Of a stretch of DNA of 64,000 bases, positions 8,541-63,796 are shown piece after piece. The stretch's first letter is position 1. The number at the start of each line of letters is the position of its first letter. Where the stretch lies: NCBI GenBank assembly GCA_963920765.1, contig OY987244.1:12092501-12156500 (forward strand). The letters run 5' to 3'. Both the position numbers and the translations under genes were made by a program. This DNA comes from Ulota crispa. Lineage: Eukaryota > Streptophyta > Bryopsida > Orthotrichales > Orthotrichaceae. A model generated the notes under the pieces. That model was given only the letters and a program-made list of their open reading frames with translations. It did no database searches and was not told the origin of the DNA.

Positions 8541-8904
8541 TTAGAAGGGTATATAAAAAATGGAGAAAATAGTGTTCCATGATAACATTACAAAAAACAT
8601 AAAACCTAGTTGCAAAATTGTGACATGAAGTCTAAAATCACTGCTAAACATATTTTCAAACTAGTGATGTTGATACGCAAGGCATAACATGTATAATTGC
8701 AAAAATATTGCAAACAATATTGAAATCTAGTTTTGAAATGTTGCAACATACGATGTGGTTGGAATGTTGCACATCTTGTACATATGCATGGCGCTTCACC
8801 ATTCTAAATCCACTGCAAGGTCGTGCCCAATTTTTGGTTACATGTGCTGCAAAATTATAGTTAAACCCATTGCAAGCGTTGCCTTTTTGTTTTAATTTGA
8901 GAAT
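8541..8904. other. Intergenic, nothing recognised
   Basis: AT-rich spacer between repeat S and palindromic element Q, without open exons. Confidence 0.4.
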
Positions 8905-13716: not shown

Positions 13717-14052
13717 AACGAGCAAAACGTTTCATCCATGTATAGCGGCAAAACGAAGCATACAACGTGAGAAATTTTGAAGTTTTAAAACATGGAGAGA
13801 GCTTTGGGTTCACGAATCCCACCACACAGATAAAGAATCTATGCTCATGCGAGCGATATTAAGTTATATTCCACTCTAATGTCGGCAGGCAAAACCTGGA
13901 CTTTCAACAGATCTACGCAAGTTTTGCATTCTGGAGTATAATTACATGGGTCCAAGTCACTCTCACTATATAGCCAGTGGACTCTGGTGTGGAACCAGAA
14001 ATGAGCAAACACATCATTCAACTATTCCAGCTCCTTTAAAAAAAGCCTGGCT

Positions 14053-14823: not shown

Positions 14824-14960
14824 GGGTGCTCTCGACGACGCTCCACGCTGCAGTAACTATCGCTCAAGATCGCTGGAGGCTGACGGAATTGATAATGCCA
14901 CAAGCAGAAGCAATGGAACTCTGCATATGGACATGAGCTAGGTCGTAGTGCAGACACTTG

Positions 14961-15302: not shown

Positions 15303-15469
15303 ATACATTAGTGGAAAACTCCTTCCAAAACAACAGAAAACCAACAGTTTCTTGTTCATTTGGGCACTTGCACACGCTAATTGACTAATTTAACAGAATT
15401 CTGTAAAAAACTAAATACGTTATGTTGATTTGGACACCATTATTTAAATCAACAAAAATTTTGGAATCT

Positions 15470-21809: not shown

Positions 21810-22462
21810 TTAACCCCTCACCGCCCAAAGGGCCCAAATTGGGCTTATCTGAGTTTTATTCAAAAATCAGTTTAACCTTTCTACAAAAAATTTTTAGTGA
21901 TTATAATTATTTTAAAACTCCTATTGGAGTCTAGTTTCAACATCAAGAGTCTGATTTTGAAAATGAATGAAAGTAATTTGTCCATTCAAGATTTTGTGCA
22001 AGACTGTCCATTGCAAATCTTCACTTTCTAGTGTTGAAGGCTCTTGGAAATGAGCTTCAAATACACTAGAACTTAGAGAAAAAATCACATTAAAAATTCA
22101 ATTTAAAAACTATAGAATAGATTTTGAGAAGCCGTAAATTGATTGGGGTTAAGCATGTTATACTTTACATACTCATATTTTTTTGGTACCCTCAATTTTA
22201 GTTTTGAGATGCAAAAAGAAGATTGAAAGGCTTCAAATCACTTTTGCACTTTTAACACCCTTGTGATCAAACATTATAATCTTTCAATCCATAAATGATA
22301 TTGTTGTGAATTTTTTCCTATGTGATCTATAACATGTCTACTTTAAATTTGTACAATTGTGTTTTAGAAAAATTTGATAACATTGATCAAAATGCTAGCA
22401 CTTTGTTCACTTTCAAACAAATTCTAAGAGACTCCAAACTACCATGGGCGGTGAGGGGTTAA
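21810..22462. mobile_element. TTAA element D2 (653 bp)
   Basis: Starts TTAACCCCTCACCGCCCAAA and ends in the reverse complement CATGGGCGGTGAGGGGTTAA. TTAA lies at both ends. Roughly 80% like D1 and in the same orientation. No transposase. Confidence 0.92.
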
Positions 22463-22834: not shown

Positions 22835-23384
22835 GGAGAAATTATCTGGATACCCTAAAGTTTGCCTTATTTGTGTAGATATCCTTGGTTTCTCAAATAT
22901 TGCACAAATACAGTTGGACCATAATTTTCAAGCACTTTTATTATTGTGTATGTCACTTCCTTCTCCCTTCAACACACATTGCTATTTCTCTGTTGTATTG
23001 CACTCCCTATTTTAACCCTTAAAGCACAACAAGGCATCATATATACATGGTTGTATAATTCGCATTTGCTACCCCGTACAAGGTTTTAATTTGGGATCTC
23101 AAGTAACTCATTAGAACCACTTTGATCTATTCTTGAACTTCTTTGTTGATCTCAAATGCAGTAAAGGTGTGAATCTATTTCAAATACAAGAAAAACACCT
23201 TGTATTCTATTGGTCGCATTGGCCAACTCCGTCCTTTAGGGGTTAACATTGAGCATGAAGGAAATAGCGTGCATAACAAATAAGACGCTTGAAAATTATG
23301 GTCCAAGGGTATTTGTGCTATATCTGGAAAACTAGGGGTATCTACACAAATAAGGCAAACTTCAAGGTATTTAGATAATTTCCC
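22835..23384. mobile_element. Element C1: MULE-type MITE with 9-bp target duplication, split by B1
   Basis: Ends GGAGAAATTATCTGGATACC and, reversed, GGGAAATTATCTAAATACC. Flanks TTAAAATAA (22,826-22,834) and TTAAATTAA (23,385-23,393) match at 8 of 9. TTAA element B1 occupies its centre. Without B1 it is about 315 bp, close to C2. Confidence 0.85.
23012..23246. mobile_element. TTAA element B1 (235 bp), nested in C1
   Basis: Starts TTAACCCTTAAAGCACAAC and ends CCGTCCTTTAGGGGTTAA. Same family as B2 and B3 in reverse orientation, sharing CAAATACAAGAAAAACACC and the GATCTCAAATGCAGTAAAGG motif. C2 at 48,485 gives the empty site. Confidence 0.9.
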
Positions 23385-27819: not shown

Positions 27820-29649
27820 TTAAATTCCAACTCCAACTCTGCTGTTGGAACTTCTTCTTTGGCGTATCAACAATCAAAGACAACAATTTCCCAACTAATG
27901 TTTTTATTAGCGCTTGAATTTGGAAATGATCACACGTGGTCACTTCTACATGAAAATTGAAGTGTATCAATGCAAGAGATTTATGAAATCTAGAAAAATA
28001 TACCAACATATAAGAAATCATACAAAACATCCATAAATGGAATAATTGTGTTCTATAAAGTGCAAAACTAAACTATAGACTTTAAAGTGAATTTTGTAGT
28101 TAGAATCAAGCACAACAAATAATAAGTTTGAATAGGTGGAGAGGAAAGAAGCGGTCAAGTTAGATGCAACTCACAATATGACTAATTGGGACCTTTCTTC
28201 TTCTTGGATGAGTTTCCCAATACTATTTTGCAAAGTGGTTTCATACGCTTGAGAGAATCAGTTGTACCCTCTAATGGAACAAAAATATCTATTGGATTAT
28301 GTACCCTTTCATATGATCTACCTTTTAACTCCATAATCGTACTTTGTAATGTATCAATGCCTGATAATACATGTTGTTGCAACCAAGATTCTCCTTCAAC
28401 CATTTTCTCTAAAATAGAGAATTGCCTTCTAATCTTTTGGGTGAGGTCTATAGGTGTTTCTTGCCTTGGAGGTACTACAATGGAACAGGGGTCTCTCAAA
28501 ATCTCGTCATAAGAAACAAAGCAAGAAGCACGTTCTTCTAGAGAAGCAAAAGTTGTCATTTGTGACACATCACAATTTTGAAGGTTTTGTGGCACTGTCC
28601 ACTTTCCACCAACTTGTGAATCAAAGTACCTCTCACACGCTCCAACCAATTGCTAATTAGTTGCTCCAAAAATCAATTGGAATACTCTCAAGACATGTTT
28701 GCATATATTTGCTTGTCCAACTTTAGCACAACTACAATTTGCCCATTCAGATGATGGATTAGATATATAATAATCCACCTTGGTTTTGTGGCTACCATCT
28801 TGAACTAGTACAGAACCGTTTGGATTGGATGGAAAGAGAACATCTTCTTCTTTAATTTTTCCTGCCTTCAATACCATATCACAAATAATCTCATTTTTGT
28901 GTTTGTTTTTCACAAAACCATGGCATTTAAGGAAGTTCAAGTACCAATAATGGTGTATAAGATTGGAAGTCAAGAACCATACCAACCAATCAAGTCGTTT
29001 AGGTCTTAGAGTTTTCTAACTCAAAGCTTGTTGTTGTTTGAGGACATTGTGATATGCTTCAATAGCAGCATTTGTATCTTGTCCAGCATGAGGAAATTGC
29101 CTTGTTGCTTTTATCCACATACCTAATACATTTCATAACAAAATAACAAGTTAGCTTTGTTTAAATGGAACGAAACTTAGATACAGTAATTTATATACAA
29201 ATCAACAACTTTAAAAACTACATATAATTCAAAATTGAAACAAATTCTAAAAGTGGTTAGTTTGCACTAAATAAAAGGAATGACTCACCAATCTTAGAAA
29301 CCCAAGTTTGTTTAAAATATGTGATGAAGGAAGTTTCACTTGAGTATTGAGTGAATATTTGGTCCAATAAGGTACAAGCCACTTCTTCTGATTCCACTAC
29401 TGTCTTGTTATAAGAGACCATGTACATTACCATGCCAAGTTTTTTCATTATGTCCACTCTTACTTCAAGGGACCAAACCTTTTTAATCAAGTGATTTAGC
29501 CAACAACGTTGAACATGCCATAGGCATAGCAAAATTGCAACTGAATTGCCCCAAACAAGCCTGTGTTCACAAAGAAAATAGATTAGAAATTTAGGTTTTG
29601 AAATTCTATAACTCATTGTAATTGAAGAAGACAAAAAAATCAATCAAAT

Positions 29650-30970
29650 TATTTGTGACATTTCAAATGAATTTTTTATACTAAAGATATTAGTGATCAT
29701 ATAAAATTCAAACACCTTAAGAATGCAGTGAATTTTTTGTACTATTAAACCAAAAAGTGGTGATTACAAGGAATTGACCAACTTTTAATATAAAGTTACA
29801 TATATACAATTAAAGGTGTCTTTGCCTTTGTAACCCACTAACTATTGCACCAGTAAGTGCCAAAATTTCATAAATAGGAAAAATCCTTAAAAGAAAGAGA
29901 CATGTACAGTAGTTATTGTGCACTAAACTCTATGGCCAAGAAAAAGTACCAACCATAGTTTTATACCCAATACTACCTGGAAAGCTGAGAACAAAGTGAA
30001 AATAATTTTAGAAAACAAATCTTTATCTTCAAGTAATTCAAAGTGAACGGTGGAAAGCATGGCAAAACCCTACATTAAAAAAAACAATGATGATGTAAGT
30101 TCCCCTTTTTAGCTATTTGATACTCAAGTTTGAGAAGTTAGTGGGATTTAGGATGTGACATACAATATGAAATGATCTAAGATTTGACTCTAAAGTCCTA
30201 AACCACTGTAAATACAAAGTGTGAGAGCAGTTTAATCATTTAAACTATAAAAGTTCAAATTTTGAATAATAGATGAATTTAAGTAGGTTCTACACAAAGA
30301 AGGAATTGTTTTTTTAATTAACGTATATTTTATCATATTTTTATGTTGGTTTTTTGACATTATAGAATACCTATATTAATTTTTTTCTCAGATACTCTAT
30401 AGTACAAAGAAACTTAGTTTTGTTTTGCTTCAACAAACTAACATTATTAATTTGAATTACTGGAGTTCTAAAATGACTTTATAACGTAAGAGAAAAATGT
30501 AAAGAAAATCCACAATAAGGATATGAAGTTGTCATCCTAATAAAAACAAAGTCTGTTTTTCAATATACTCTAGAAATTTATTAACAATTCTAGATTATTT
30601 AATTTAAGTTTCAATGTTAAGTATTGGTGAGAATAATAGCATAAATAGTGAAATGAATATGATGAATGGATCATGTTTTACTGTATGGAATCTCACAAGT
30701 TATGTTAATTTCTTGAATTGTATGTGATATTGCATCTTTACATCTCTAAAAATCCAAAATATCCCTAGTCAAGCTAGTAAACTGTAGTCAATTTAAATTT
30801 ACTTATAAAAAGTCAAATTCAATCTTGTCATGCTCATGTTTTTGTAGGTCTGAAAATAATGGCAGAAGTTTTGCTAAAACATCAACTGCAAACCTTCAAA
30901 CCTTCATGTGTGAATGACATACAGCAATGTGTACACGCGTGGTTTAACAAAGTGCATCATTAAAATTGAG
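29650..30970. other. Intron-like AT-rich gap of the MULE gene
   Basis: Very AT-rich, no open exon, no recognisable element ends. Lies between MULE exons at 31.3 and 29.5 kb together with O2. Confidence 0.45.
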
Positions 30971-30981
30971 TAACTTTTTTT

Positions 30982-31245
30982 GGGAATTGATATGTGCACA
31001 CCCAGTGGTTAATATATATGCACACCCGGTGGTTAAAATATGCACACCCGATGGTTAATATATGCACACCCAAGTAGTTAAGTTTTAGGTATTTGCTAGT
31101 AATAAATTAAATTTGGAAAGTTTGAATTCATATTTGGATTTAGAGACCTTGAGTTACTGTAGAACCACAAAGGATGTTATAATTGAAAAATGTCTAATGA
31201 AAATGTTCAAGTTTTTTACAAACAAGGGTAAAGATAATAATTTGC
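30982..31245. mobile_element. Element O2: partial copy of MULE-type fold-back O
   Basis: Begins GGGAATTGATATGTGCACACC like O1 (first 20 bases compared) and shares GGATTTAGAGACC and the TAATGAAAATG..CAAGTTTTT block. The right arm is missing. Contains the four-unit repeat at 30,990-31,081. Confidence 0.65.
30990..31081. repeat. About 22-bp tandem repeat, four units
   Basis: Four units of TATGCACACCCGGTGGTTAA plus two A/T bases, with small length changes, inside O2. It appears to be local amplification of the element's terminal sequence. Confidence 0.9.
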
Positions 31246-33189
31246 CCCTTAGCTAAGCTAAGCATTCACAAACTCACAAGGAAAACAAGGAGATTATTGC
31301 TAAATTTTGATAACTTACCTGACAACATTGATTTCCACGTCCGCATTATCCACCATGAAAGCATTTGGTTTCCAATCAAGGTTTAGTGTCCTCATTTTAT
31401 CATTGATTTTTGACATCCACAATGATATATCATCACCCTTGGCACTATCAATGATTATCCATGCTACCGGGATGCCATTGCAATAAGTATCAAATACCAT
31501 AAGTGTAAACAAGTGATATTGCAATAGTCCACAAATTGAATTAGTAAGATGTAATAATACAATGTGTAAATAGTTTATGTTTTTTCCGATTTCAAAGTAA
31601 AACATACATAATTTTTTTTGAACATGTTATAATTTATTTTAGCATTATCTTATTTCATACCTATAAAGCACTTGTAGAACATCCCTACAAATTTTATGAT
31701 ATCTAAAGTATATTTAGGTGACAAGTTAATACCATTTTTGATGAAAATAACACAATTTTATATATCAAATTTCTGAAAATTTCTATATAATACAAAGGAA
31801 ATTGCATTTTCACTTCAAAAAAATGATTTTTTGATTTATGAGAATGTCACTTCATATATACTAGCAACAAGCAATCAAGAAAAAAGATAGGTACCTTATA
31901 CTTATTTGTTCCAAATGTGGCATCACAAACTATAATGCTTTTATGGCCAAATTCTAACATTTTGTTAGATTGCCAAGGTGATTATAAACCTAATATATAG
32001 GCTTCAGATTCCCTTGAGCTTGAAATCTTGTTTTGTTAGGAAAAAACCAAGTCTAGATGCTCTTTCATCCACATATCAACACTAATACAATCATCTTTGT
32101 GTTTTTGATATTTTTTCTTGGTCCATTTTCTAGAGAGATTCATAATATCTCTCATCAAAAGGTAATTGTCTCCTGAAATATCTTCTTCATGTCCATGGAC
32201 ATCAAACTTTGCTTGCAATAATTGTGTATGTTGAGCAATAATTTGAGATGCAGTACAATTTTTAGACAAATTTTCCTCAATCCACGCTCTCATTGGGAAA
32301 GATAAATTTTGTGTATAGCCTTTTGTTTTTCTGCACTTGGATCTAAATAACCGTGACAATGGACTCCTTCTTTATCAGTATGCCCTACATGATAATATAT
32401 TATCTGTGATACACTTAGCCACAAGTATAATTGCTTAACTGAAAAATAACATAGACATCCTCTTTTTATAGGAGGACCTCCTTCAGCACTGTACAATCTA
32501 CTATTAGATCCACTTTTGGGTTTGGAGGATTTATCACTCAAGGACAATAGTGGAGTTTGAAAGTCTTCAGGACCATATGAGCATTCATACCTACAAAAGA
32601 AAAACAAAATTATTACAAACATATAATAACATTCTTATGCATTGATTTGTGTTTGATAGCATTAGAGGATCTTCTAAAGTTTTGCATAGAAAGCCCAAAA
32701 TACATGACCGGTCTGGATCTAGTTAAATAATCTGTTTGGAGTGTATCCTTAAACCTGACATTACTACACACTGTAATATGGATTTTGTTTCTTTTACCTT
32801 CTTAGCAATGATGTATTATTTTCTAAATAACCATAATAAATTCTATTACAAAACCTCCACAGAAAAGCAATATTCAATCATTTGAGGAGTACTTAGGTTT
32901 GGGAATTTTTGGTTTTTCACCCTCAAAAGAGTATTTATTGAAAATTCTTTCAAACAAATCCGGATGTCCCAAAATTGGAATTTTTCTCAAATCAATACAT
33001 ATTTTGTTCATAACTGTCCAATTATTGCAATGACAAGCGTTGCATATGTGTTTGTGAAAAAATTGAGGTTTAAATTGACATTGTTGAACAAATTGATGAT
33101 GTTGCATGAATCTTTTATTTCTGGGAGAGCTGAATTTGATTATTTTTTAGACAAGCTTAAAAACTACATAAGATAGGAGATAACTTTAA

Positions 33190-33719
33190 ACTTGACATGT
33201 TAGAGATTCCAAAGAAAAAGAAAACACAACAATATCACTTTTAGTTTGATTTTAACATTTGAACATGAGAGTGTTAAAACTGCAAAAGTGACTTGAGGTT
33301 TTCTAATCCTTATTTCACATGTCAAATCTAAAAAGTTGGTCATCAAAAAAATATGAGGTTTAAGGTCATTTCATGTTTAACCTCAACCAGTTTACGGCAT
33401 TCAAAATCTACACTTGTATTTTTTTTTAAATGGATTTCTAATGTGGATTTTTCTCCAAGCTCTAGTGTATTTGAGGGTCATTTTCAAGACCTTCCAACAC
33501 TAGAAAATTCAAGATTGTAGTGGACATCCTTGTACAAAATCTTGAATAGAAAAATCATGAACATTCCTTTTCAAAATCAGATTTTTGATGTTGAAAATAG
33601 ACTTCAAATCAAACTTGTGTTCAAAAGAAAATACCAAAAATGGTAATTTGATAAGATTTTATTTGTCTTCAAAGTTTTGCAAACACCCAAATTTGGTGCC
33701 TTGGGCATTTAGGGATTAA
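33190..33719. mobile_element. D-type TTAA element D3, left end lost
   Basis: The right end GCCTTGGGCATTTAGGGATTAA (last 20 bases compared) closes at TTAA 33,716-33,719. The interior aligns with D1 reversed (GACATGTTAGAG, CAACAATATCA, CTAGTGTATTTGAGG). The left TTAA is not found; sequence homology fades near 33,190, next to a MULE exon. Confidence 0.7.
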
Positions 33720-36625: not shown

Positions 36626-37145
36626 TTAGAGAGTTCTGATATAATTTTCATGATACAATTCCCATGAACAGTCCAGAAGTAGCTGACGTGTCATAGTATA
36701 AGATTTCTCCACTTTTCCTCCACAAATCCACCATGAATTCAATCCCTCACAAAAAAATCTGAAAGTTTTACGGCATACAAAAGATATGTGATTTCATCTC
36801 TCACATAAACGTACAGAACGTTTCATCCATCGGTTTAGCGGCAAAACGAAGCATACAACGTGAGAAATACTGATTGAAGCTTCAAAACATGGAGAGAGCT
36901 TTGGGTTCACGAATCCCACCACACAGACAAAGAAACAATGCGCATGCGAGCGATATTAAGGTATATTCCACTCTAATGTCGGCAGGCAAAAACCTGGACT
37001 TTCAACAGATCTACGCAAGTTCTGCGTTCTGGAGTATAAATACATGGGTTCAAGTCACTCGAGATCATTATCCAGAGTACTCTGGTGTGGAACCAGAAAT
37101 GAGCAAACACATCAACTATTCCGGTTCCTTTAAAAAAAACTGGCT

Positions 37146-37909
37146 TCACCCAAGAGCAACGTCTGCCCAGCCACCATCGAGCTTGGGCCAGATCACGCAC
37201 TCAGAAACGTTGACTCGTGCGTCGGGAAGGTCAGCCAACCAACCCAGTTCAGGAGCATCCTCTTGAGCCACATGAGCTCCTAAGACCGCATTCACCTGTT
37301 GAGGAACTGGCGGTTGAGCGTTGATGCCTTCGTTCCCAATCATCCTGAAAAAACACACAAACTTTTTGAACATTCGGACTCTCGGTATATATCCCGCCAT
37401 CCCGGTACGTGGCTATATTCAGGAAGGCACTAGTCTAACATTCCTTGTCAACTAAGCTGCAGAGCAAATCTCATTGACAGCTCATTCTAATTCATACGCC
37501 CAGTCCCCTATCCAACACCGCCTTCTCAAAAACCAAATCCTCTGTTCTCTACTGATACTGCACTGTTGATAATTAGTACTTCTCTAATGCATGCTGATAA
37601 TTAGGAACAATTTAGACACCGGCTGGGTCTGGGAGTTGATAGAATTCAAGTCAGAGTGAAGGGGAGAGAATGAACGGCAGGCGCAATGAATGAATGTGCG
37701 AACGCAAGCAGAGCAACTGACAAAGATGACAACGTAATCAGACGTTGAACGTACGTCGAGCAATGTGACACGAACAATCAAAGACGTCACACAAATCTGG
37801 TGGATATCTGGCATGGGCTGCGACTCAGCTCCGCAAAAGAGAACGACGACGACGACGCAGTTCAGGAACGAGACCTGTTGGCTCCGTGCTCCGGTGCTGC
37901 TGCAGCCAT
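37146..37909 (-). CDS. Unrecognised small protein, tandem-family copy 2
   Basis: The last exon 37,146-37,344 opens after a TTTTTCAG acceptor and reads MIGNEGINAQPPVPQQVNAV, LGAHVAQEDAPELGWLADLP, DARVNVSECVIWPKLDGGWA, DVALG, then TGA. The presumed start at 37,909 reads MAAAAPEHGANRS. A middle block that might be an exon in copies 1 and 3 carries stops here in every frame I tried, so this copy may be inactive or the block may be intron. No domain recognised. Confidence 0.45.
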
Positions 37910-38240
37910 GGGTATTCTCGACGACGCTCCACGTACGCTGCAGTAACTATGGCTGAAGATCGCTGGAGGGTGACGGAATTGAGATTGCCACAAGCAGATT
38001 GAAACAGTGGATCGAGCTCTACTGGTGGACGTGTGAGGTGAGTACAGACGAAGGAGAGCTTTTATTCACTTCTGAAGAGGAATCGAAGGAGAGAAGAACA
38101 GTTGCCACTGCAATGAAACTTTCATTGGCTTCCTTCACTGGAGGGTCCCTTTTGCTCCGCCCAGCGAATTCCACACGCTAGCTCTGGCCCAATCAGCTCC
38201 CTCCACCCAGGCGGAGAATTAAAACCCGGGTGAACAATGT
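37910..38240 (-). promoter_or_regulatory. Presumed promoter side of family copy 2
   Basis: GC-richer DNA upstream of the ATG at 37,909 on the minus strand. No TATA box or known element could be fixed, so this is by position only. Confidence 0.2.
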
Positions 38241-39117: not shown

Positions 39118-39260
39118 TTAACCCCTAAAGGACCACTTGTCCGGTTGTCCCTACAGAGGACAAATGGGATTTTGGGCATGTACTTATGGCTAAATAACTT
39201 TGTGTAATTTTTTGAAACTTTTATGGAAGATGGGGAATTCAAAGATTTGTGTGGGCATCT

Positions 39261-41207
39261 TGTGGAGTAAGATTTTTGATCACTTTATTTGTAAACCTAG
39301 TCTAGGGATGAGTTTGTTCAATGAGGCTATTTCTCATAGGTTTGCAAGACTCTTTCAATTGTACTTAAAATCTGAGTAGGAAGTTCTTTTATTAATTGGA
39401 TTATGGCTATGCTCCTAATTGCCATTAGGATGTTTTACTCTTAATTAATGCCCAAGTAAAGTTAGAATGTTCAAATCTAATTGCTTTTTTTCTTCTTCTT
39501 TAACCTCCAATTTCTTGAAGCTTTCTTTCTCCAGCTCCAAATCTTTTTTTTTTATCTTTTCCAATCAACTTTGCAGCTTCACAGATCTATATCTTTTTAC
39601 TCCAAGCTGGACTTAATTATCCTTAGAGCCACTCGGAATTGCATTACTTTATTCTCTCTCTTACTTCCCCAAATAGGCTGGTATACTCTTTTCTTAGAGC
39701 ACTTCTTTCCAACTCGGAACATTAGTACTCAATTCTCCACTCGGCTGAGTCTCTCAAAGACTCATTTTCCAAATTGGAATTACATTCTTTCTTTTTCTAT
39801 CACTTTCCCACTCAAAATATTCTCTCAACCACTCTCAAAGCTCCTTTTGTTCTCAACGTCATATTCGTTAATTTGGGCCAAGGGTACTTTTTGGGACTTT
39901 CAAATTTTGAAGTGAAGATTTTAGGTGATCACCTAGAACCAAGCTCAGCATTTTTTAATGTATAGGTGTCCTCACCTGAGAGGAGGAATTTGCAAGGGAA
40001 AAAATCTTAGTGGCTCAGACTAAATCTGATACTTTCAAATCTGGTTTAAGTAAATTTTGGGTTTAAGGTGACGTACAGAGTGGAACATCCCAGTGGCCCA
40101 AATTAACAAATATGACGTTTCTCTTAGTTTATCACCAATCCAACTTGGATTATTTTGCTCATACTCTCACTTTCTTATTAGGATTATTTCTTCTCAATTG
40201 TCTCTCTCCTCAATTTGGCTGGTATTCCCAATAATTCTCCAAGTAGGTATTTTATCCTCCTCCTACTTGGCTGATTTCTCCCCTTGCTATATCACTCTAA
40301 CTCTAGTTTGGATCTTTCTAGCTACAATCGTCCACTTGGCAGATTTTTATTTAAAACCCAAGAAGAATCAATTGGGTTAAGCTCACAGCTCTAACTTAAT
40401 ATATTGCTTTTTATTCTCTCACTTTGAAATCCTATTTGAATTCTATTTGTGCTTTTGATTTGGCTTTCAAGTTAGAACTATAACAACAGAAATCAAACAA
40501 GCAAAATCAGACAACATCTCTCAAGATTCCTTCCCACTCAGTCAATTCAATTAGAAATCCACATGCATTCACACAATTAAATTCAATCCAATTGATCAAC
40601 CATATAAGCACAAGTAGGAAATTTCACACACATGCTACAAATAGTAAAACTCTTCTCCAATTAGAAACTCTCCAACTAGGCTTCAATTTTTCTCACATGC
40701 TCAAAACAATTTTGGTTAACTCCCCAGTTGGAATACAACTTCAATCTCAAGCACACACAATCCTTCTCATAACTGAGATCATTCCAAATCAAATATACAA
40801 ACATATAATTCAATCCCACTCAAATTCTTACACACTCAAGCGAAGCACAAATTGGACACACCACAACTTGCATAATCAACAGAACAATTCAAACAAATAG
40901 CTATGTATTAACAAGCAAACAAATTGAACACACAAAAGCAGCCAACTTGGCTGGACACTGCGCTCCAAGCACATGGTCCTTTCCTCTTCCTTCTCTTCCT
41001 ACTTGTACACTTCTGCTCACCCCTCCAGAACTTTCTACTTGCCTCTTCCATGAAAACTCTCGATTGTTGGTGAATTTCGTTCTTTTGTAATCTCAACAAC
41101 CTAATTGTGAACTTATAACAACCCAATTGCACTTAAACTGCTGAAAATGAAGAAAAGAATACCTATTCGTTAAATTTTAGCAAATAAGCACAACTAGGCA
41201 TTCTACA
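39261..41207. mobile_element. Solo LTR of an LTR retrotransposon, inserted in A2
   Basis: Begins TGTGGAGT and ends ATTCTACA, with CATCT on both sides (39,256-39,260 and 41,208-41,212), the 5-bp duplication usual for LTR elements. About 1.68 kb without nested F3. It carries no coding region, as expected for a lone LTR. Superfamily cannot be told from the LTR alone. Younger than A2, older than F3. The long pyrimidine-rich ORF at 39,481 is read as LTR sequence, not a gene. Confidence 0.75.
39855..40119. mobile_element. Element F3 (265 bp), 4-bp target duplication TCTC
   Basis: Ends AACGTCATATTCGTTAATTT and, reversed, AACGTCATATTTGTTAATTT. TCTC flanks both sides (39,851-39,854 and 40,120-40,123). 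Nested in the solo LTR. Confidence 0.93.
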
Positions 41208-41867
41208 CATCTAGTTTTTACCTCATTTTGACATTTATTGAAGAAGTTAAAAATGAATTTATGAGAATTTTTGTTTGGAGAGCAGTCCAAAACTTTTTTT
41301 TAAATCGTATTTTTTAAAACAAAAACTTGAGGTTAGTTCTTTAGACTTAAGTATATGTGGGAAGCTTTGAATCATTCAATTTTGATTGATGAGATGAAAG
41401 TTATGAGAAGTTTTAGTTTGCAGGTAGGTATGGAAAATCTCACAACTATGCCTACACGCAAACTTAAACTTCTCATAACTTTCATCTCATCAATTAGAAT
41501 TGAATGATTCAAAGCTTCTCAGATAAGCGTAAGTTTAAAGAACTAACCTCAAATTTTTATTTTAAAAAAATGTGATTTTTAAAGAATTTTTTGGGTTGCC
41601 CGCCGAACAAAAATTCTCATAAATTCATTTTTAACTTCTTCACTAAATGTTTGAATGAGGTAAAAATTAGATGCTCACACAAATCTTTGAATTCCCTATC
41701 TTCCATGAAAGTTGCAAAAAATTACACAATATTGTTTAGTCATAAGTACATACCCAAAATCCCATTTGTCTCGCGTAGGGACAAGTGGTCCTTTAGGGGT
41801 TAAATCTTGGTGTGCATGCTGCTCTAATATCAAAAATGCAAAAAATAAACCTTGCTATAATGTAACA

Positions 41868-43131: not shown

Positions 43132-44028
43132 TTAACCCGTAAAGGTTTGGGCTTTATGAGAACTCGGGCAGGCTCTAATTATTAACTTCATAATTTGTAT
43201 TTTTTTCATGAAATTTTGAGGATGGATGCTACTCATCATAATCTACATGTGAAGCTTTATTTCATGCCATTCCGATAAGTAATGCAAAAGTTAGAAGGTT
43301 TCTTCAATTTCAATGTCAAATCGGGCAGCAAAAAATATATTCTATTTTTTTTTTTAATATAGTTTTATAGATTGATACCTACTCAAAAAAATGGAATCAC
43401 TCAATTCCAAATAATGAGGTAAGAGTTAAAGGGAGTTTTATTTTGCGGGCAATGAAGGTAGGAAGAGGAAAAAAATCATATGAAGTTATCTTTTACTCTC
43501 AATTTTGAAAATTTTCAAATGAAAATGAACATGAAAGTTCCTGATTGTTTGTTAGAGCATTCTCACTATTGGGATTAACAATTTTCAAATTCTTTCAAAA
43601 CTTATTAGCATATGAGTTATATCTTTCATTCATTGATACCTTTCACTTTACAACTTTTGTAAAAATGAATCCAAATTTTTTTGGTTGATTTTTTTTACAT
43701 ATGCTTTCAACCCATTTTTCAACATATTGCCAAAATTGCACAAGAAATACAAAATGCGTGTTTTTCTCTAAAAAGTTTGAAAAACAAAACTTCACCTTCT
43801 AGAAGGACTAGAAAAGCCTACATTTTGAAGTTTAGGCACATTGATCTTGCAATAGGTGGGGATATTCATTTTGAAATTTTGGGACAGTGTACTTGTGCAA
43901 GCCAACCAAAGGATCCTACGGTTGGATTTGTTAAAAAGTAAGTTTTAATGAAGATTTTGACCTAGGTTATAGGACTAGTATTTGAAGCAGTTTTGGGCCT
44001 CTAAACACAAAAGAGTTTTAGGGGTTAA
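43132..44028. mobile_element. TTAA element A3 (897 bp)
   Basis: Starts TTAACCCGTAAAGGTTTGGG and ends AGAGTTTTAGGGGTTAA with TTAA at both ends. Length and layout fit the 900-bp class. The interior is diverged, with one 86-codon ORF (43,681-43,941, +) that matches no other copy or known transposase. Confidence 0.8.
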
Positions 44029-49914: not shown

Positions 49915-50270
49915 AACTGACATTTCATTCTCACATTTTCATATGAGATTCTCATGCAATTTTGATCAAGCGTATCAAATTTCAGTTACTAAAACTCAAA
50001 ATTCTATTTTTGGTAAATGGTTTTGTGTCAATATCATGGTTTTACAAGAAACTTGATAAATAAATAGTGGTGATGAATTTTTGAGATTTGATTGCATGGA
50101 TATATAGGAGTCATCCATATGCACATCTTCCTTTCAAACAAACATTTCCAAAAAAATCAAAATTCCTTCTATAGAGGTTATAATGTTAGGGTGATTATGA
50201 CCAAATTTAGTAAAATTCAAATTTCTTCAAGGAAATTAGTTTTTGGCAAAAAAATGGTGCAATTGTTGCT
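49915..50270. mobile_element. Single-arm fragment related to elements Q and R
   Basis: Aligns with the arms of R (57,890-58,130) and Q (9,030-9,290): GATCAAGCGTATCAAAT, GATGAATTTTTGAGATTTGA, TCCATATGCACATCTTCC. Only one arm is present. Confidence 0.6.
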
Positions 50271-50425: not shown

Positions 50426-50659
50426 TTAACCCCTAAATGTCTCAGCGTGCTGGTCTGACCAATACAATATAGGGTGTTTTTCTTGTATTTGGAATGGATC
50501 CACACCTCTACTACATTTGAGACCAACAAAGAAGTCGGAGAAGAGATCAATGCGGTTCTAGTGAGCTACTTGAGACCCCAAATTAAAATTTCTTATTGGT
50601 AGCAAATGACAATTATACGTCAATGTATATACTATGCCCTATGGACATTTAAGGGTTAA
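50426..50659. mobile_element. TTAA element B2 (234 bp)
   Basis: Starts TTAACCCCTAAATGTCTCAG and ends CTATGGACATTTAAGGGTTAA (last 20 bases compared), with TTAA at both ends. Aligns end to end with B3 and, reversed, with B1. Confidence 0.92.
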
Positions 50660-52083: not shown

Positions 52084-52988
52084 TTAACCCTTATAGGTCC
52101 AAGCCCTTTTTTTTTGTGAAAGTCACTCAAAATTGTCACTTTTGGGGGAATGAATAGAAAAGTCAGAAAAATTGTTTTCTTTGGAAATCCAACCGTTGGA
52201 TCTTGCCCTTGACTATGGAAGGTACTTGTGTGAAAAAAATCAGCTCATTCTAGATGTAAAGGAGTGAGATATTGACGTCTAAAGAGAGAAAAAAAAAGAT
52301 TTTTTCTGTGTTGCCCAAAAATTTTAGAAGCCTTTGATAGCTCTTATATCAAAACAATTGCTCTACACAAAGTTGAGGTTTTTTTTCCCATGTAGAAGAC
52401 CAAGTTAGGTAAGTACGGGAGAATTTCAAATGAATTAGAGGTGTGAATCATACTTTGTAAAATCTTGCAATGCCGTAAGGGCATAAGGCCATGAAATTTG
52501 CATATACACTAGGCAAAATTGGAGGATTTATGTAAAGTTGAGAAATTTGAATTACTTTGATCCAAATGGTGAAAACCAAGGAATATTAGTCTCCTGCCTC
52601 TACTCCAATTTGGGAAAAAAAAGTCAAAAAATAAATACACAAATTGCTCAAAAAAGTAAAGCGCCAAATTTTACAAGGGGCAAAATTGAATGATTCAAAG
52701 CAGCCCACATGTACACAAATCTAAAGAACCAAATTCAATTTTTTATTTAAAAAAAAGAGCTTTTTTTTGGGCTGCCCGCTTCTCCCTTGTTTTTCAGTTA
52801 TTCATGCATAACTTCTTTTGTAAATGTTGGAATGAAGAAAACATTATAAGATGCACACGTAGATCTTTGAATTCTTCATCTTCCAAAAAAGTTTCAAAAA
52901 ATCACACAAAGTAGTCTAGTTTAGTTGTAAGTACATGCCCAAAACCCCACTTGGCCCCCAAGGGACCACTTGGGCCTTTAGGGGTTAA
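52084..52988. mobile_element. TTAA element A4 (905 bp)
   Basis: Starts TTAACCCTTATAGGTCCAAG and ends CTTGGGCCTTTAGGGGTTAA, with TTAA at both ends. Aligns over nearly its whole length with A5 in the opposite orientation. No transposase. Confidence 0.92.
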
Positions 52989-54747: not shown

Positions 54748-55256
54748 TTAGAGAGTTCTGATATAATTTCTATGAACAGTCCAGAAGTAGCTAACGTGTC
54801 ATAGTATGAGATTTCTCCACTTTTCCTCCACAAATCCACCATGAATTCAATCCCTCACAAACAAATCTGAACTTTTAACGGCATACAAAAGATATTTGAT
54901 TTCATCTCTCACACAAACGAACAAAACGTTTCATCCATGTATAGCGGCAAAACGAAGCATACAACGTGATAAATACTGATTGAAGCTTCAAAACATGGAG
55001 AAAGCTTTGGGTTCACGAATCCCACCACACAGATAAAGAAACAATGCGCATGCGAGCGATATTAAGTTATATTCCACTCTACTGTCGGCAGGCAAAAACC
55101 TGCCAGTGGACTTTCAACAGATCTACGCAAGTTTTGTATTCTGGAGTATAAATACATGGTCCAAGCCACTCTCACTATCCAGTGTCCTCTGGTGTAGAAC
55201 CAGATCTAAATGAGCAAACACATCCACTATTCCAATTCCTTTAAAAAAAACTGGCT

Positions 55257-56008
55257 TTACCCAAGAGCAACATCTGCCCAGCCACCATCGAGCTTGGGCC
55301 AGATCAAGCACTCAGGAACGTTGACTCGTGCTTCGGGAAGGTCAGCCAACCAGCCCAGTTCAGGAGCATCCTGTTGAGCCTCAGGAGCTCCTAAAATCGC
55401 ATTCATCTGTTGAGGATTTGCAGGTGCAGGGACGATTTCGTCGTTCTCGATCATCCTGAACAAACACACAAGCTATTTGAACATTCTGACTTTCGGTATC
55501 CCTGGTACGTGGCTAAATTCAGGAAGGGACTGACGCTCGATCCTTGTCAACAAAGCTGCAGAGCAGATCTCTCATTGCCAGCTCATTCTAATTCATACGC
55601 CCAGTCCCCTGTCCAACACCACCTTCTCAAAAACCGAATCCTCTGTTCTCTAATGATACTGCACTGCACTGCTGAAAACCAGTACTTCTGTAATGCTGAT
55701 AATCAGGAATAATTTAGACACCGACTGGATCTGGGAGGGTTTAGAAAAATTCATGTCAGAGTGAAGGGGAGATCGAGAACAGCAGGCGCAATGGATATAC
55801 CAACGCTAGCAAAGCAACTGACAAAGACGAACACGTAATCAGACGTTCAACGTTGAGCAATGTAACACGAACTGTCTAAACGTCACAGAATTTTGTTGAG
55901 AATCAGGTGGATATCCGGCATGGATTGCGAAAGCTTCGCTGGACAGAACGACGTTGACACAGGTCAGGAAGGAGACCTGTTGACTCCGGGCTCTGGTGCT
56001 GCTGCCAT
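55257..56008 (-). CDS. Unrecognised small protein, tandem-family copy 3
   Basis: The last exon 55,257-55,455 opens after TTGTTCAG and reads MIENDEIVPAPANPQQMNAI, LGAPEAQQDAPELGWLADLP, EARVNVPECLIWPKLDGGWA, DVALG, then TAA. The presumed start at 56,008 reads MAAAPEPGVNRS in a CACCCATGG context, followed by an ACAG-GTCTCC donor candidate. A middle stretch near 55,520-55,560 (GCAG acceptor, then SFVDKDRASVPS) is shared with copy 1 and may be an exon. The order and spacing of parts match copies 1 and 2, consistent with one gene unit of about 0.76 kb. No domain recognised. Confidence 0.5.
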
Positions 56009-56177
56009 GGGTGCTCTCGACGACGCTCCACGCTGCAGTAACTATCGCTCAAGATCGCTGGAGGCTGACGGGATTGAAAATGCACAAGCAGAAGCAATGG
56101 AACTCTGCATATCAGTGTTTTTTTTTTCTGGCGACAGAGTGCTGGTTTCATCCACTCTACGCCGTTCCCTCTGAAAA

Positions 56178-56405: not shown

Positions 56406-57566
56406 AACGCGTTATTCGTTAAGCCCGAAAGGCCCATTGTCCCTTCGGGGGACAAATGGGATTTCAAGCATGTACCTATGGTTAAGATATTCTGAAACTT
56501 TTATCGAAGGTGAGGAATTCAAAAATCTATATGGAAAAGTAATTTTTTCTTCATTTCAACATTTATTGAAGAAGTTATGCATGAATATCTCAAAAATGCT
56601 GCTCCCTGCGCAGCCAATTTTTTTTTAAATTTCATTTTGTTCAAATAATTATCTGAAATAGGTTCTTTAGACTTATATAGATGTGGGGAGCTTTGAATCA
56701 TTCAATTTTGATAGAAGAGATGAAAGTTATGAGGAGTTTTGTTTGTGGGCAGTTCTAGATTCTCTATTCTAAAATAAACTTTGAAATCCTTTATTTTACT
56801 CAATTTTCACTATTTTGGAAAAAAAACAAAACCAAAGGATGTAGATTGTTTATCACAACATTATAACCATAGGGATTTGCATTTTTCATTTTAATAATTA
56901 AATTCTTAACAATTTAGTGTTTTGACCCCTTCTCTACTTCTTTTTATTTACTATTTTTTCCCATGTGTTGTATAGTTCCCAATGATTTGAAAATCCTCCC
57001 ACACATACCTAACTTGGTTTTTTACATGGGAAAAAACCTCAACTTTGCGTAGAGCAAATTTTTTGATATAGGAGTGGCCAACGGCTTCTGAAATTTTTGG
57101 ACAGTACAAAAAAAACTATTTTTTTCACTTCACATGTAAATATCTCACTCCTTTTCACTTGGAATAAGCTCATTTTTTTCCCGAAGTACCTCATATTGTC
57201 TAGAGCAAGATCTTATGGTTAGATTTTAAAAAATAAGAAATAAAAACACCATTTCTTTCATTACCTCAAAAGTGACAGTTTTTAGTGTTTTTTATAGGGA
57301 AAAGGGCTTGGTCCTTTAGGGGTTAAATTGGGAAAAAACTTACATTTTGAGACTTTTGAAGGTTTTATTGAGACCTCTTGAAATTGAGCTCAGTGATTTT
57401 TTTGGGTACACGTGTCCTCACTTGAGAGGAGGAATTTGCGAGAAAAAAATCTTAATGGCTCAAATTGAATCTGATACCTTTGAATCTGATTTAAAGTGAC
57501 TTTTTGGGTTTAAGGTGAATTACAAAATGGTACCTCCGTTTTTCTCAATTTAACGAATAATGCTTT
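56406..57566. mobile_element. Element F2, 4-bp target duplication AATG, split by A5
   Basis: Ends AACGCGTTATTCG-TTAA and, reversed, AAAGCATTATTCGTTAAATT. AATG flanks both sides (56,402-56,405 and 57,567-57,570). A5 occupies the TTAA within its left terminal repeat; without A5 it is about 253 bp. Confidence 0.93.
56419..57326. mobile_element. TTAA element A5 (908 bp), nested in F2
   Basis: Starts TTAAGCCCGAAAGGCCCATT and ends CTTGGTCCTTTAGGGGTTAA. TTAA lies at 56,419-56,422 and 57,323-57,326. The uninterrupted F terminus TTATTCG-TTAA-ATTGGG proves that TTAA was the target and was duplicated. Confidence 0.95.
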
Positions 57567-57570
57567 AATG

Positions 57571-57810
57571 AAAGTAAGACACGTACTCATGTATACAGCA
57601 GGAAATGTAAATAAGCAGAGAGGAACATTGCGAGATGCGAAATTGATCACCTGGCCACCTGGGAACCCGCCTGGGAATCACTAAATATTATAAGAAGACG
57701 TGCAATGGCCTACTCCTGCCGAGAAATGATAGAGTAGTAGTTGCCTAGGCAATGAAAGTGAGGCCCAATGAACTGTACAAACAAGTAAAAGAGCAGAGAG
57801 GAACACAAAG
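57571..57810. repeat. Diverged copy of the 38.24-38.44 kb flank
   Basis: Shares CACCTGGCCACCTGGGAA, GGCCTACTCCTGC and AAAAGAGCAGAGA with 38,240-38,440. It is the promoter-distal end of the duplicated segment, displaced by F2/A5 on one side and R on the other. Confidence 0.6.
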
Positions 57811-58695
57811 TGTACAATCGGGTCCATTAATCTTACAAACTGTCTTTTTTGAGGCATTTAGATTTTTGAATGAAATGTGGAGTACAATTGGTATGTTTTT
57901 GTCCAAAAATTTATCATTGCATTCTCACGTAATCCCAATCAAGCGTACCAAATCTTAATTTCAAAAAAGGAAAATTTCATTTGTGGTGAAATTTCAAAGC
58001 AAAATTTCATGGTTTTACATGGTATTTTATTAACAACAATTAGTGATGAATTTTTGAGATTTGATTTTATGGGTATGAAGGAAACATCCATATGCACATC
58101 TTCCATTCTAAAAAATACTTCCTTAAGTAACAAAAATTTGATCAATACAAGATTTAATGAAACTTGTGATAGGCCCAAATCACAAAATTTTATTTTATTT
58201 TATGAAAATCAAGTTTTATTGTTTGACTCAAATATTGTGACTAAGTTTGTATTTTTGAACATAATATCTTGTTTACTTGATGAAAAGCTAGTTAAAAAAT
58301 AAAAAATATGTATTTTACAAGATTTGGGCCTATCACAAGTTTCATTAAATCTTGTATTGATCAAATTTTTGTTACTTAAGGGGGTTTTTTTTAGCATGGA
58401 AGATGTGCATATAGATGCTTCCTTCATACTCATGAAATCAAATCTCAAACATTCATCACTAATTGTTTTTAATAATATACCATGTAAAACCATGAAATTT
58501 TGCTTTGAAATTTCACCACAAATGAGGTTTTACTTTTTTGAAATTGATATTTGATATACTTGATTGAGATAACGTGAAAATGTAATGATAAATTTTTGTA
58601 CAGAAATATACCAATTTTACTCCACATTTCATTAAAAAAATTGAATGCCTCTAAAACGCAGTTCGTAAGATTAATGGATCCGACTGTACAGTTGC
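57811..58695. mobile_element. Element R: about 885-bp palindrome
   Basis: Arms of about 420 bp around 58,240. Outer ends TGTACAATCGGGTCCATTAA and, reversed, TGTACAGTCGGATCCATTAA. Inner parts share GTGATAGGCCCAAATC and GATCAATACAAGATTTAATG. ORFs on both strands mirror each other because of the palindrome. Related to Q by arm sequence. No target duplication was found. Confidence 0.85.
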
Positions 58696-58875: not shown

Positions 58876-59789
58876 TTAACCCTTTAAAGACCACACTCAT
58901 TTTCACAAAATCTATTAGAAACTGGCGCACTAAACTGAAATGCATAGTTGAATCAAATGTGGACCTAGTTTGCATAGTCCAACCATACGAATGGGAAGAA
59001 CACCTTATTTCATATAAATCGTCAAAATTTCAACCAGATTCACCATTAGAGGTGAAATATTATAATGATTGAGTGAGCCGTATGTGGAAAATCTCTAGTT
59101 TTTCATGCTTGTGTGGTTTCGAATGTTAACGTTTCATGCAAGCTTTGATTGAGGAGGGCCTTACATTTCTAAAAAGCACGGTTCCCCACCTTTCCAATAA
59201 GACTAGTTTCACACAAAATGGATAAAAATAGCAATCACAAGGTGTAGCTAAGTGGACAAAAAGGGTCAAAAATCCCACTTTCTTTGCTACCCTAAAACAA
59301 TTTTACAAGAAGTTTGATAAATGCTATGGAAAATTGGGCATGTGAAAACAATCAAGAATTGGCCTTAAATGTAAGATGACAAATTTTTAAGATGAAATGA
59401 TAGCACCATTTCAATAGATCTTCAAATACTACAATTATACTACTACCGTGTAGAGAAACAATACATGCGTATTTCTTAAGCAGTTTGAAATTTTTTAAGA
59501 TTGTACAATTGAAATTTTACATTCTTTTGGATGTTTGATGTATTGTGTTGTTACTTTGATCCATCTTTGACCAAATATGGATACGTATTTTGAGGCCATG
59601 TTTTATAAACACCATTATTTATCAACTCATATACCCGATTCCATTGTCGTATTTTTGGTTGGATGCAAAATTCTTGTGACCTTAAGCGTTCTTCAAGAAC
59701 AATTTCCAAATTGTTGAGTGATTTTACTCTATAGGCCAAAAACCACTCTACCGAACCAAAATATGGTTCGGTGGTCTCTAAAGGGTTAA
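58876..59789. mobile_element. TTAA array member 1 (914 bp)
   Basis: Starts TTAACCCTTTAAAGACCACA and ends GTGGTCTCTAAAGGGTTAA. Its right TTAA (59,786-59,789) is also the left TTAA of member 2. No transposase; the 103-codon minus ORF at 59,551 has no recognisable family. Confidence 0.9.
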
Positions 59790-60025
59790 TCCTTAAAGGA
59801 CCAAGGAGACCTTTGAGGTCAATACAATATTTGGTATTTTCTTGTATTTGGAATGTATCCACACCTTTACAGCATTTGAGATCAACAAAGAAGTTAGAAT
59901 ATAGATCAATGCAGTTCTAGTGAGCTAGTCAAGCTCCCAAATTAAAACTTTTTATTGGTAGCAAATGCCAGTTATATGGTAGTATATATAGTATGTAATA
60001 CGTAGAGCGGTCCTTTAAGGATTAA
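59786..60025. mobile_element. TTAA array member 2 = B3 (240 bp)
   Basis: Starts TTAATCCTTAAAGGACCAAG and ends CGGTCCTTTAAGGATTAA. Aligns end to end with B2. Shares its TTAA with members 1 and 3. Confidence 0.93.
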
Positions 60026-60807
60026 CCCCTGAGCGGCCAGGCCGTTTTCACCAAAATCAGGATTTTTGGAGATCAACCACTTTGATGCATTGTATCTCGG
60101 TCAATTGGATGATCCACAAAAAGTGACCATTGAAAGCAGTGGAGCACCTACTTAGAAAAATTGACTTGCAAATTTTGGGAACAATTCACAGCGAGAGATG
60201 GGAGATTATAACATTTGATCAAATAGCATGTGATGACAAAATCTCAAATTTTGGTAGGTAGTTGCTATTTGATGATTTTTACAAAATTCTATAAGACCTG
60301 GATTCATCTCAAATTTTGTGAGTAGCAAGATTAGATGTGAACACACACAAATGTAAATTATTAAAAATTGCACTTCTTTTTATGTCAAGTTTTAGGGCTT
60401 CAAATAGCTATTGCGTGGAAAACAATGACCGGCACATGCAATGATGGTTGCCATAATAAGGATCTAGAACATGCTTGAACCCTTGCCAACAACTTTCCCG
60501 CTACCGCAAAGCTTACACAAGGAAGCTTGCAAGGGATATTGACCGGTTGTAGCATGTAAAATGCTGCTTGCCAGCACGCCCCGTACGGTGCCACCACTCC
60601 CCGTATGGTGTTTTCACCCAATCAAATCTCTTATAGCACTTATACAACATTTGGCTTTCCTTGCCATTATTCCATTGGCATGGACAATTTGAATGCCTTC
60701 ATAATTGTAGTGTATAGTGAGACCAAAAAGTTAGATCTAGTCCCTCAAAACAGGGCTTGAAAATCATAGGAGGCAATATCTAGGGCGCTGGGGCTCTCAG
60801 GAGTTAA
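60022..60807. mobile_element. TTAA array member 3 (786 bp)
   Basis: Starts TTAACCCCTGAGCGGCCAGG and ends GGGGCTCTCAGGAGTTAA. Shares TTAA with members 2 and 4. The interior has CACGCCCCGTACGGTGCC followed by a second CCCCGTATGGTG. No transposase. Confidence 0.88.
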
Positions 60808-61730
60808 TCCCTAAATGCCCAAGGCACCAGATTCTAATGTCCAAAAAATTTCAAGAAACTTTGAAACCCTGTTGTAGGCACATTTTTTTTTTGAGGTTTT
60901 TTTTTGGAAAAGTTGCGCACTAAAGTTAGTTTCACCGTTCAAATTCAACTTCCTTCATATCTTATTCCATTTGTTTTTTGTGGAAGGTTAACTACAAGCA
61001 TAAATTTTATGTCATGAATAGTGTTGTGAATAGTATTGTGAATAGTGTCACAGAGCCTATGAGAAGTTGCCACATTGAAAAGACAAGCATCAAGTTGAGC
61101 AAAAGGTGAAGATTTCCCTTGGACACTCCCTTGGGCAATAAGGGCCTTTTTACTAAAATTTTAACATCTAACAAAATCTAAAAGTGGTTTTGGACCAATT
61201 TCACTTGGAATGTTTTTGTTATCAAAATTAGAATCTATTCACCATTGAAAATTCTTTCATTCATAATGATTTTTGGTCAAATAATTGAAGCTAAAATTTT
61301 GTTGTATTGAACAGTTGCATTTTGATAGTTGAGTTGCATGCTCATTTGTGAAATCCACGTGGTGAAATCGTGGGCATGGATTTGGAAGAGGGGCCATTGG
61401 TTTTGAAGTAACAACACTAAACACTAAAGCATCCTAATTGGTTGTTTCCCAATTTTATATCCAAAAGTTGCCAATTTGCATTAGAAGTTTTGGGCAGCTC
61501 CAAAAAAAGCAAAAAATTCCATACTCATCATCATTCAATCACAAATCTCTTAAAATCCGCACAACCATTTTGGATTCTTTTTGGGTAGTGCCATCTAGAA
61601 ACGTTGAAGTTCAAGATTCAACGGTTACAATTTTGTTTTGATGTTTAATAATGATCTTACAAGAGCAATTCAAAAACTTCAAAACTACCTTCCAAAAACA
61701 AGAAAAACACCCTTGGGCATTTAGGGATTA
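60804..61730. mobile_element. TTAA array member 4 (927 bp)
   Basis: Perfect 20-bp terminal inverted repeats TTAATCCCTAAATGCCCAAG. Shares TTAA with members 3 and 5. Contains a short GTGAATAGT tandem near 61,018-61,050. No transposase. Confidence 0.93.
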
Positions 61731-62084
61731 ACCCCTAAAGGTTGAAGAGGACAATTATCGTCCTTTGGGTACAAAAAAAGTAGTTTAGGGATTGGAAAAA
61801 AAACTTTTTTTATTCAATTTTTTTTCAAAAGTGGTCATTGCAAGGTTTTTCACCACGGAGTGCTAAAATTGGATTGATTGAAAGTCCTCACGTTTTTCAA
61901 AATTGAAAATTGTGAGGACATTCACAACCATGGTTGATAAGTCCCCTCTTGCCCTTCTTACAAATTTCATATGAGCAACATGCACTATTGACTTTTCCGG
62001 GCACAGCTGAACACTGTAGCTGTACAGTGTACAGTGTACGGCAGGCCACTGGCCACTACTATGGGCCCTGCGTTTAAGGGTTAA
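61727..62084. mobile_element. TTAA array member 5 (358 bp)
   Basis: Starts TTAACCCCTAAAGGTTGAAG and ends CCTGCGTTTAAGGGTTAA. Shares its left TTAA with member 4. The interior is partly palindromic (TTTTCAAAATTGAAAA and TGTACAGTGTACAGTGTACG). Confidence 0.88.
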
Positions 62085-62398: not shown

Positions 62399-63796
62399 TT
62401 AACCCCTAAAGGACCAAGCCCCTTTTTGGGGATAAATGGGATTTTGGGCATGTATCTATGGGTAAATTACTTTGCGTGATTTTTAAAAGTTTTATGGAAG
62501 ATGGGGAGTTCAAAGATTTATTTGGGCATCTTTTTTTTTTCTTCATTTTGACATTTATTGAAAAAGTTAAAAACAAATTTTTGGAAAAAAGTCCAAATTG
62601 GGCAACCCAAAAAATTCTTAAAAATTGCATTTAAAAAAAACTAAAGATATGAAATTGGTTCTTTAGACTTATATGTAGGTGGGGAGCTTTCAATTATTCA
62701 ATTTTCATTGATGAGATGAAAGTTATGAGAAGTTTTTGTTTGCAAGTAGGTGTGATTTGTGTGATGTGAAATTTAAAGTCGTACATACTATTGCATTGAA
62801 AACACAATTTAATTCCAAATTGCATGTTACATACATCCTTGAGTCCCTATTTAACCTCTAAAATCCAAAGCTGTGTTTTTCACCAAAATCGCACCAAAAC
62901 TGCCATTTCTAGTGCAAGTACCAAATATTAGAAAAAAAACATTTTTTGACACATGTAGCCATAAGATCTTGTACTACCTTAGTATTAAAAGATGTGAAAA
63001 AAAATTCAAAATTTTTCACCATATAGACTGTTATATATTTGAGTTTGAATTGACATAAAGCCATTTTTTGTTCGTGCAAAAATCCTAGCAGATGCATTTT
63101 ACAAAGTCATATTTGTATGATTTTTTTTCAAAATGTTTGTAATTTTTTGGGCTTGTTCTTCAAAGCAAGTTGGTTACATACTAGAAAGATTTCAAAATCT
63201 CTTGGCATTGTAAAACACATGGAAAAAAAATAGTGAGTATGGGGATGTAGAGAATGATTCAAACCACTAAATTGTTAAGAACTTAATTGTGGAAATAAAA
63301 AATTCCAATCCCAATGGTTGTAATGTTTTAATAAGCAATCTACATATGTAGATTTTGTTTTTTTTTCCTAAGTATTGAAAATTGAGTAAAATAAAAGACT
63401 TCAAAGTTATTTCAAAGTAGAGAATCCATAACTGCCCCCAAACAAAATCTCCTCGTAACTTTCATCCCATTGATCAAAATGGAATGATTCAAAGCTTCCC
63501 ATGTATATAAATATCTAAAGAACCAATTTCAAAAACAAACGTTCAACATGTAACTTTTTAAGAAGTTTTTTGAGCTGCCCATCTTGCCCGCTAGCCAAGA
63601 AAAGAAAACTACATATCATGCAATAACTTTTGAACCGCGAAGTCAAAAGTTATGAAAGTTGTTGGGCCTTAAAGCTACTCCTTAGACACATCATGGGTGA
63701 AAATTTTAAAGAAAAAAAGTGAAAAAACTCACTGGTAGTGAGCTACTTAAAATTGCTATGTTGCCAAAAAAGGGTGTTCATAACTTTAGGGGTTAA
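62399..63796. mobile_element. TTAA element A6 (1,398 bp), probably compound
   Basis: Starts TTAACCCCTAAAGGACCAAG and ends ATAACTTTAGGGGTTAA with TTAA at both ends. Arms 62,560-62,745 and 63,416-63,600 are inverted copies. The longer size than A4/A5 is explained by extra sequence beginning at a second TTAACCTCTAAAATCC at 62,851, likely another TTAA element whose right end is lost or shared. Confidence 0.8.

Follow-up and report, generated by a model that had tools for sequence, protein, structure and literature searches.

The window, the whole 64,000-nucleotide stretch of DNA analysed here (35% G+C), holds between positions 58876 and 62084 four, probably five, distinct small DNA transposons which lie end to end and have a TTAA in common with each neighbour. 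Direct reading of the sequence divides this interval into five TTAA-bounded units, E1 to E5, without spacer between neighbours; these units, their junctions and the relatives described below carry no strand assignment. E1 (58876..59789) is a MITE-like TTAA element of 914 bp with TIR TTAACCCTTTARAGACCAC, whose 19-bp ends differ by one mismatch and were independently recovered by an inverted-repeat search (95%; one mismatch, TTAA included). E2 (59786..60025), a TTAA MITE of 240 bp with TIR TTAATCCTTAAAGGACC and 17-bp perfect ends, is followed by E3 (60022..60807), a putative TTAA element of 786 bp with a degraded TIR, bounded by the ends of E2 and E4. E4 (60804..61731) is a TTAA element of 928 bp with TIR TTAATCCCTAAATGCCCAAGG, which has 21-bp perfect ends, given as 26-bp arms (96%) by the inverted-repeat search, and a 30-bp end match at 33690-33719. 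The last unit, E5 (61728..62084), is a putative TTAA element of 357 bp with a sound left end. The shared TTAAs, read directly from the sequence, stand at 59786..59789 (E1/E2), 60022..60025 (E2/E3), 60804..60807 (E3/E4) and 61728..61731 (E4/E5), each with terminus-like sequence on both flanks. A preliminary description of this DNA had listed single TTAAs at 59,786, 60,022, 60,804 and 61,727; all four are present with a spacer of zero, the last having been placed one base too low. Its wording that the elements stand head to tail has no meaning here, as element ends are symmetric.

E1, E2 and E4 are sound elements, whereas the ends of E3 are degraded and the right end of E5 (62084) is weak. Counted without the TTAA, the TIR measures 15 bp with one mismatch in E1, 13 bp in E2 and 17 bp in E4, and is imperfect in E3. 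A study on coral gives the terminal motif CC[C/T]T and a TIR of 12-19 bp as criteria for piggyBac-type MITEs (PMC2872659); E1, E2 and E4 lie within this length range and E5 does not, while the first bases are CCCT at both ends of E1 and at the right end of E5, and TCCT, TCCC, CCCC or CTCC at the other array ends. What supports E3 is terminus-like sequence lying between the neighbouring ends of E2 and E4, its end match (11 of 16 inner bases) being by itself not above a direct-repeat control. The left end of E5 matches an end at 63796 better (11/16) than its own mate (9/16), and 16 of 487 TTAA sites, the mate included, reach 9/16 against it. Beyond the array, after a spacer of 315 bp, stand pieces of another family, the C family (62399..63796, no strand assigned), consisting of a left part at 62399-62854, which is 70-77% like parts of C1, C2 and C3 with ends at 81%, and a rearranged stretch ending at 63796, within which 63188-63531 matches C3 in inverted order (81%). 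Of the sixth element announced at this distance, a C-family left end is present at 62399; since the unit behind it is rearranged, with an uncertain right end, we rejected a simple element E6 of 1398 bp.

The five interiors are unrelated to one another except for two short weak matches (E2/E4, 21 bp; E1/E4, 32 bp). Second copies of E1 (search at E 1e-4) and of E3 are absent from the window. E2 has two solo relatives, one at 50426..50659 (83% over 177 bp) and one inside another repeat at 23012..23246 (78% over 193 bp, reaching the left TTAA of E2), and these align with each other from TTAA to TTAA at 79%. The unrelated interiors and the E2 relatives support the earlier claim of serial insertion as opposed to tandem duplication. 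That the array is a tandem duplication or an assembly artefact is a reading for which no sign was seen and to which we give next to no credence, given that duplication would not yield unrelated interiors and that false joins would have had to fall exactly on a TTAA between matching ends four times.

Over the first 16 inner bases, the left end of each element matches its own right mate at 14 (E1), 13 (E2), 11 (E3), 16 (E4) and 9 (E5) positions, and with 63 matches in 5x16 bases this own-mate arrangement scores best among the 120 ways of pairing the five elements, for which the mean is 48.6. Adding E6 makes it equal in score to an alternative in which E5 and E6 exchange right ends. We also scanned TTAA pairs 100-4000 bp apart, comparing 16 inner bases as inverted repeats with a direct-repeat control. 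The scan recovered E1, E2, E3 and E4 with the same scores, but inverted matches at 10, 11, 12, 13 and 14 of 16 numbered 68, 16, 8, 4 and 3 against 73, 28, 9, 6 and 4 in the control, that is, without excess; only pairs matching at 16/16 were in excess (8 against 1), several of the eight being arms of fold-back repeats. Because 16/16 is the sole class above the control, end pairing alone proves only E4. Support beyond pairing comes for E2 from its solo relatives and for E1 from the 19-bp match with one mismatch, TTAA included.

The statement that terminal repeats match within each element therefore stands in so far as own-mate pairing is best, with E3 and E5 remaining weak, but the accompanying statement that they do not match between neighbours was wrong, because the ends share a motif and the left end of E2 fits the right end of E4 as well as its own mate (13/16 in both cases; local score 19 against 26 for the mate). 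One motif, TTAA-YCCYTWAARGRCC (also given as TTAAYCCYTWAARGRCC(A)), fits eight of the ten array ends with at most 3 mismatches in 14; the right ends of E3 and E5 have 5 mismatches, a level reached by many other TTAA sites. Inside E1 to E5, no terminus of this type, with up to 5 mismatches, occurs besides those at the junctions and outer ends. A common end motif would be what cross-mobilisation by one transposase lineage needs.

For counting purposes, 14 elements were called in the window, all with a TTAA at both ends, this being part of the calling. They comprise a family with two members (6952-7607 and 21810-22462), the three members of the E2 family (E2, 23012-23246 and 50426-50659), the four of the C family (39118-41803, 52084-52988, 56419-57326 and the rearranged 62399-63796), and 43132-44028, E1, E3, E4 and E5; the count excludes a partial copy of the C family that ends at 5331, as well as an end at 33719. 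Paralogous sites that lack the insertion were sought for four elements, each flank being tested against 200 random stretches. The E2 relative at 23012-23246 has such an unfilled site near 48669, whose flanks match at 44/60 and 51/62 positions, better in each case than any of the 200 random stretches, and which has TCAA in place of the TTAA. At 39118-41803 the left flank was above random and the right one (41/61) was above the 95% level but not above the best random stretch, TTGC standing opposite the TTAA. The sites for 43132-44028 and 56419-57326, with a single TTAA at the breakpoint, were set aside as full unfilled sites since only one flank beats the random stretches. A search of the window gave no unfilled version of the array site. 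About 180 bp to the left of the array lies a large near-palindromic element (57808-58693; self-match 84% over 894 bp), to which sequence within 8903-10877 and 49948-50227 is related.

We think it likely that the array arose from non-autonomous, piggyBac-type cut-and-paste elements moved in trans, which inserted serially at each other's edge TTAAs. As published, piggyBac elements insert into TTAA with its duplication and leave TTAA overhangs upon excision (PMC7351741), and autointegration into TTAAs of their own DNA is reported, with no self-avoidance (PMC3952818). A transposase encoded elsewhere would move the elements in trans, each insertion duplicating the target TTAA; where the target was the edge TTAA of a resident element, the two would end up with one common TTAA and both outer ends kept, and repeated edge insertion would build a chain. 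Because such an insertion leaves both elements whole with one TTAA, the arrangement needs no new chemistry. Edge TTAAs were probably favoured as targets in this process, possibly through bound transposase, proximity of ends, or joining by TTAA overhangs before insertion.

The order of arrival bears on a different possibility, in which several excised elements were ligated through their TTAA overhangs, either mutually or within the gap left by excision, ahead of reintegration or in its course, so that the array came in one step. Excised Paramecium segments, described in a 2017 study, reportedly count in favour of such joining. The one-step reading predicts a single long, non-nested chain with one TTAA at each join, and when piggyBac hairpins are opened, the transposon is left with a 4-nt TTAA overhang and the donor gap with complementary ones (PMC7351741). 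Against it, the two E2 relatives stand without E1 or E3 sequence alongside, and the unequal divergence of the ends (from 9 to 16 of 16 matches) hints at different ages, even if some asymmetry may have been present initially. We regard arrival in one step as improbable and serial arrival as the better account. Also unlikely, though worth stating, is a broader version in which TTAA elements with different interiors and one end motif are either joined via overhangs or recruited by end-bound transposase, their arrays growing as non-nested, still-mobile mosaics that can yield composite transposons.

Whether serial insertion requires a preference for edges was approached by simulating random serial insertion into TTAAs, with 13 elements and 390 ancestral TTAAs; all chance figures given here are post hoc, from one locus selected for its striking look. 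At least four shared junctions arose in 0.016% of runs with 13 elements and 0.10% with 16, the corresponding figures for a chain of five being 0.0005% and 0.003% (200,000 runs each); with 14 elements, at least four shared junctions arose in 0.05% of 20,000 runs. It could be argued that unbiased insertion into a transposon-dense stretch suffices, the chain having been noticed because many windows were read, and a large genome could hold such a chain somewhere. Shared junctions are indeed expected by chance, at 0.34-0.52 per window and 0.83-1.16 in the dense stretch. Yet when insertion was confined to the last 14, 8 or 5.4 kb, at least four shared junctions arose in only 0.34%, 0.31% and 0.73% of runs (100,000 each), and a chain of five in 0.03-0.36%. 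Moreover, no similar terminus is found in the interior of the array elements, and if four insertions strike TTAAs of the array itself, the probability that every one lies at an edge and none inside is 0.017 on average (0.003-0.064 depending on order), a figure independent of local element density. Chance is on these grounds an improbable explanation.

Serial insertion with favoured edge TTAAs can also be put in terms of strength. Edge insertions make up 4 of the 14 called elements, or 29% (95% interval 8-58%), and the edge weight that best fits four shared junctions among 14 is about 15-20, with weights from 5 to 60 not strongly excluded on the values tried. None of the other nine called elements adjoins a relative, and at a weight of 20 a chain of five appeared in only 7.6% of 4,000 runs; a uniform edge preference therefore fits the count of junctions better than it fits a single long chain. 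In permutations over the 487 TTAAs, the back-to-back count was 3 under a strict YCC setting (expected 0.66, p 0.02) and 5 under each of two other settings (expected 0.90, p 0.0015; expected 0.99, p 0.0013), the counts of 5 each taking in one extra doubtful site (23410 and 52985); these p values are post hoc, because these ends contributed to the motif and the appearance of the locus led to its choice. Taken together, the simulations and the fitted weight suggest, from one post hoc locus, a preference for the TTAA at a resident's edge; a relative may already have bound or opened this TTAA, as the preliminary description proposed.

Such a preference might instead belong to the target sequence, the transposase favouring, at any location, TTAAs whose context resembles GGGTTAACCC. 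Edge TTAAs carry that context on one side by definition, and weak flank preferences are described for Daphnia Pokey (PMC3849761), but the flanks of the nine solitary insertions have 34% G+C against 33% for all 487 TTAAs, a comparison of small n, and we hold this reading to be very unlikely.

The array is a further example of an arrangement already published for Daphnia Pokey/mPok of the piggyBac superfamily, which likewise target TTAA and include MITEs about 750 bp long and edge-inserted elements (PMC3849761). As with Pokey/mPok, one element stands in the TTAA that flanks another, here at four junctions, and the 29% share of edge insertions is of an order similar to that published for Daphnia. 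The differences from that account are that the Daphnia members are all Pokey or Pokey-derived, whereas here up to five unrelated interiors occur in one chain, and that the transposase is known in Daphnia, whereas here the scanned frames yielded none. The non-autonomous SaTar MULEs of guayule and rice also form linear arrays, in which unrelated small elements stand end to end without nesting, but they belong to the Mutator type, make 10-bp duplications and target microsatellites instead of TTAA (PMC5907723); at the four junctions here a single TTAA stands, with neither such duplications nor microsatellite flanks. Pineapple Ac-mMITE clusters are also non-nested and were ascribed to several independent insertion events and not to tandem duplication; their intervals consist of almost pure (TA)n, with no single shared TTAA (PMC8449440). 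In Pithovirus, a giant virus, adjacent M1 and M2 repeats have the target dinucleotide in common, and the same source states, after Jiang and Wessler 2001, that MITE multimers account for 11% of rice MITEs (PMC10664404). Among TTAA MITEs of piggyBac type, the coral CMITEs are able to form tandem arrays too, but their array members and spacers are alike and were read there as replication slippage (PMC2872659). What is less usual here is how mixed the chain is, with up to five members of distinct sequence, and the Daphnia-type arrangement is now seen in another eukaryote. The chain lends itself to a clean test of whether insertion by TTAA transposases is biased towards the edges of resident relatives; if it is, composite mobile elements could arise by way of such arrays, since a whole block could be moved by two compatible outer ends.

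The array members look like non-coding piggyBac-type MITEs, and the transposase acting on them would probably be of piggyBac type. Kolobok elements have a TTAA target too and are a possible alternative. No piggyBac-type transposase was found among the 20 of 70 frames of at least 85 aa outside satellites that were scanned against Pfam. A candidate autonomous element is 39118-41803, with perfect 16-bp ends; two of its four internal frames of at least 85 aa were scanned, with nothing above the curated cut-off. On the minus strand, 28185-31626 has weak similarity to a SWIM zinc finger (28656-29015) and to the ZSWIM1-3 RNase-H-like domain (31318-31626), both below curated cut-offs, and one stop codon separates the frames 28185-28652 and 28656-29015; judged by sequence, this may possibly be a decayed Mutator-like transposase gene.

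A search of viral_contigs gave no match to one end motif, one degenerate back-to-back motif or the protein fragment adjoining the SWIM match. One degenerate-end scan of genome_contigs gave a single match, on an Arcobacter MAG contig, where about two chance matches are expected by estimate; the first 960 bases of this contig show only weak similarity to the window, most clearly at end motifs (E 0.015 to 0.18), other matches being equally weak. Its start (L001 1-940) has 40% G+C against 29% and carries a TTAACCCTTTAAGGACCAAGG end; it may be foreign DNA that entered the bin, or the match may be due to chance.

Long frames in the window exceed eight Markov simulations under each of codes 1, 6, 10 and 15, and because this excess appears under every code tried, a ciliate genetic code is not indicated. 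Three copies of a 1.2-kb repeat of unknown type, 83-85% alike, lie at 13717-14928, 36808-37998 and 54916-56112. An array of units of about 10 bp at 15459-16796 has a 258-bp higher-order copy, 98% alike, and a 27-bp tandem repeat of about 43 copies at 1991-3127 has long open stretches in six frames, on both strands.
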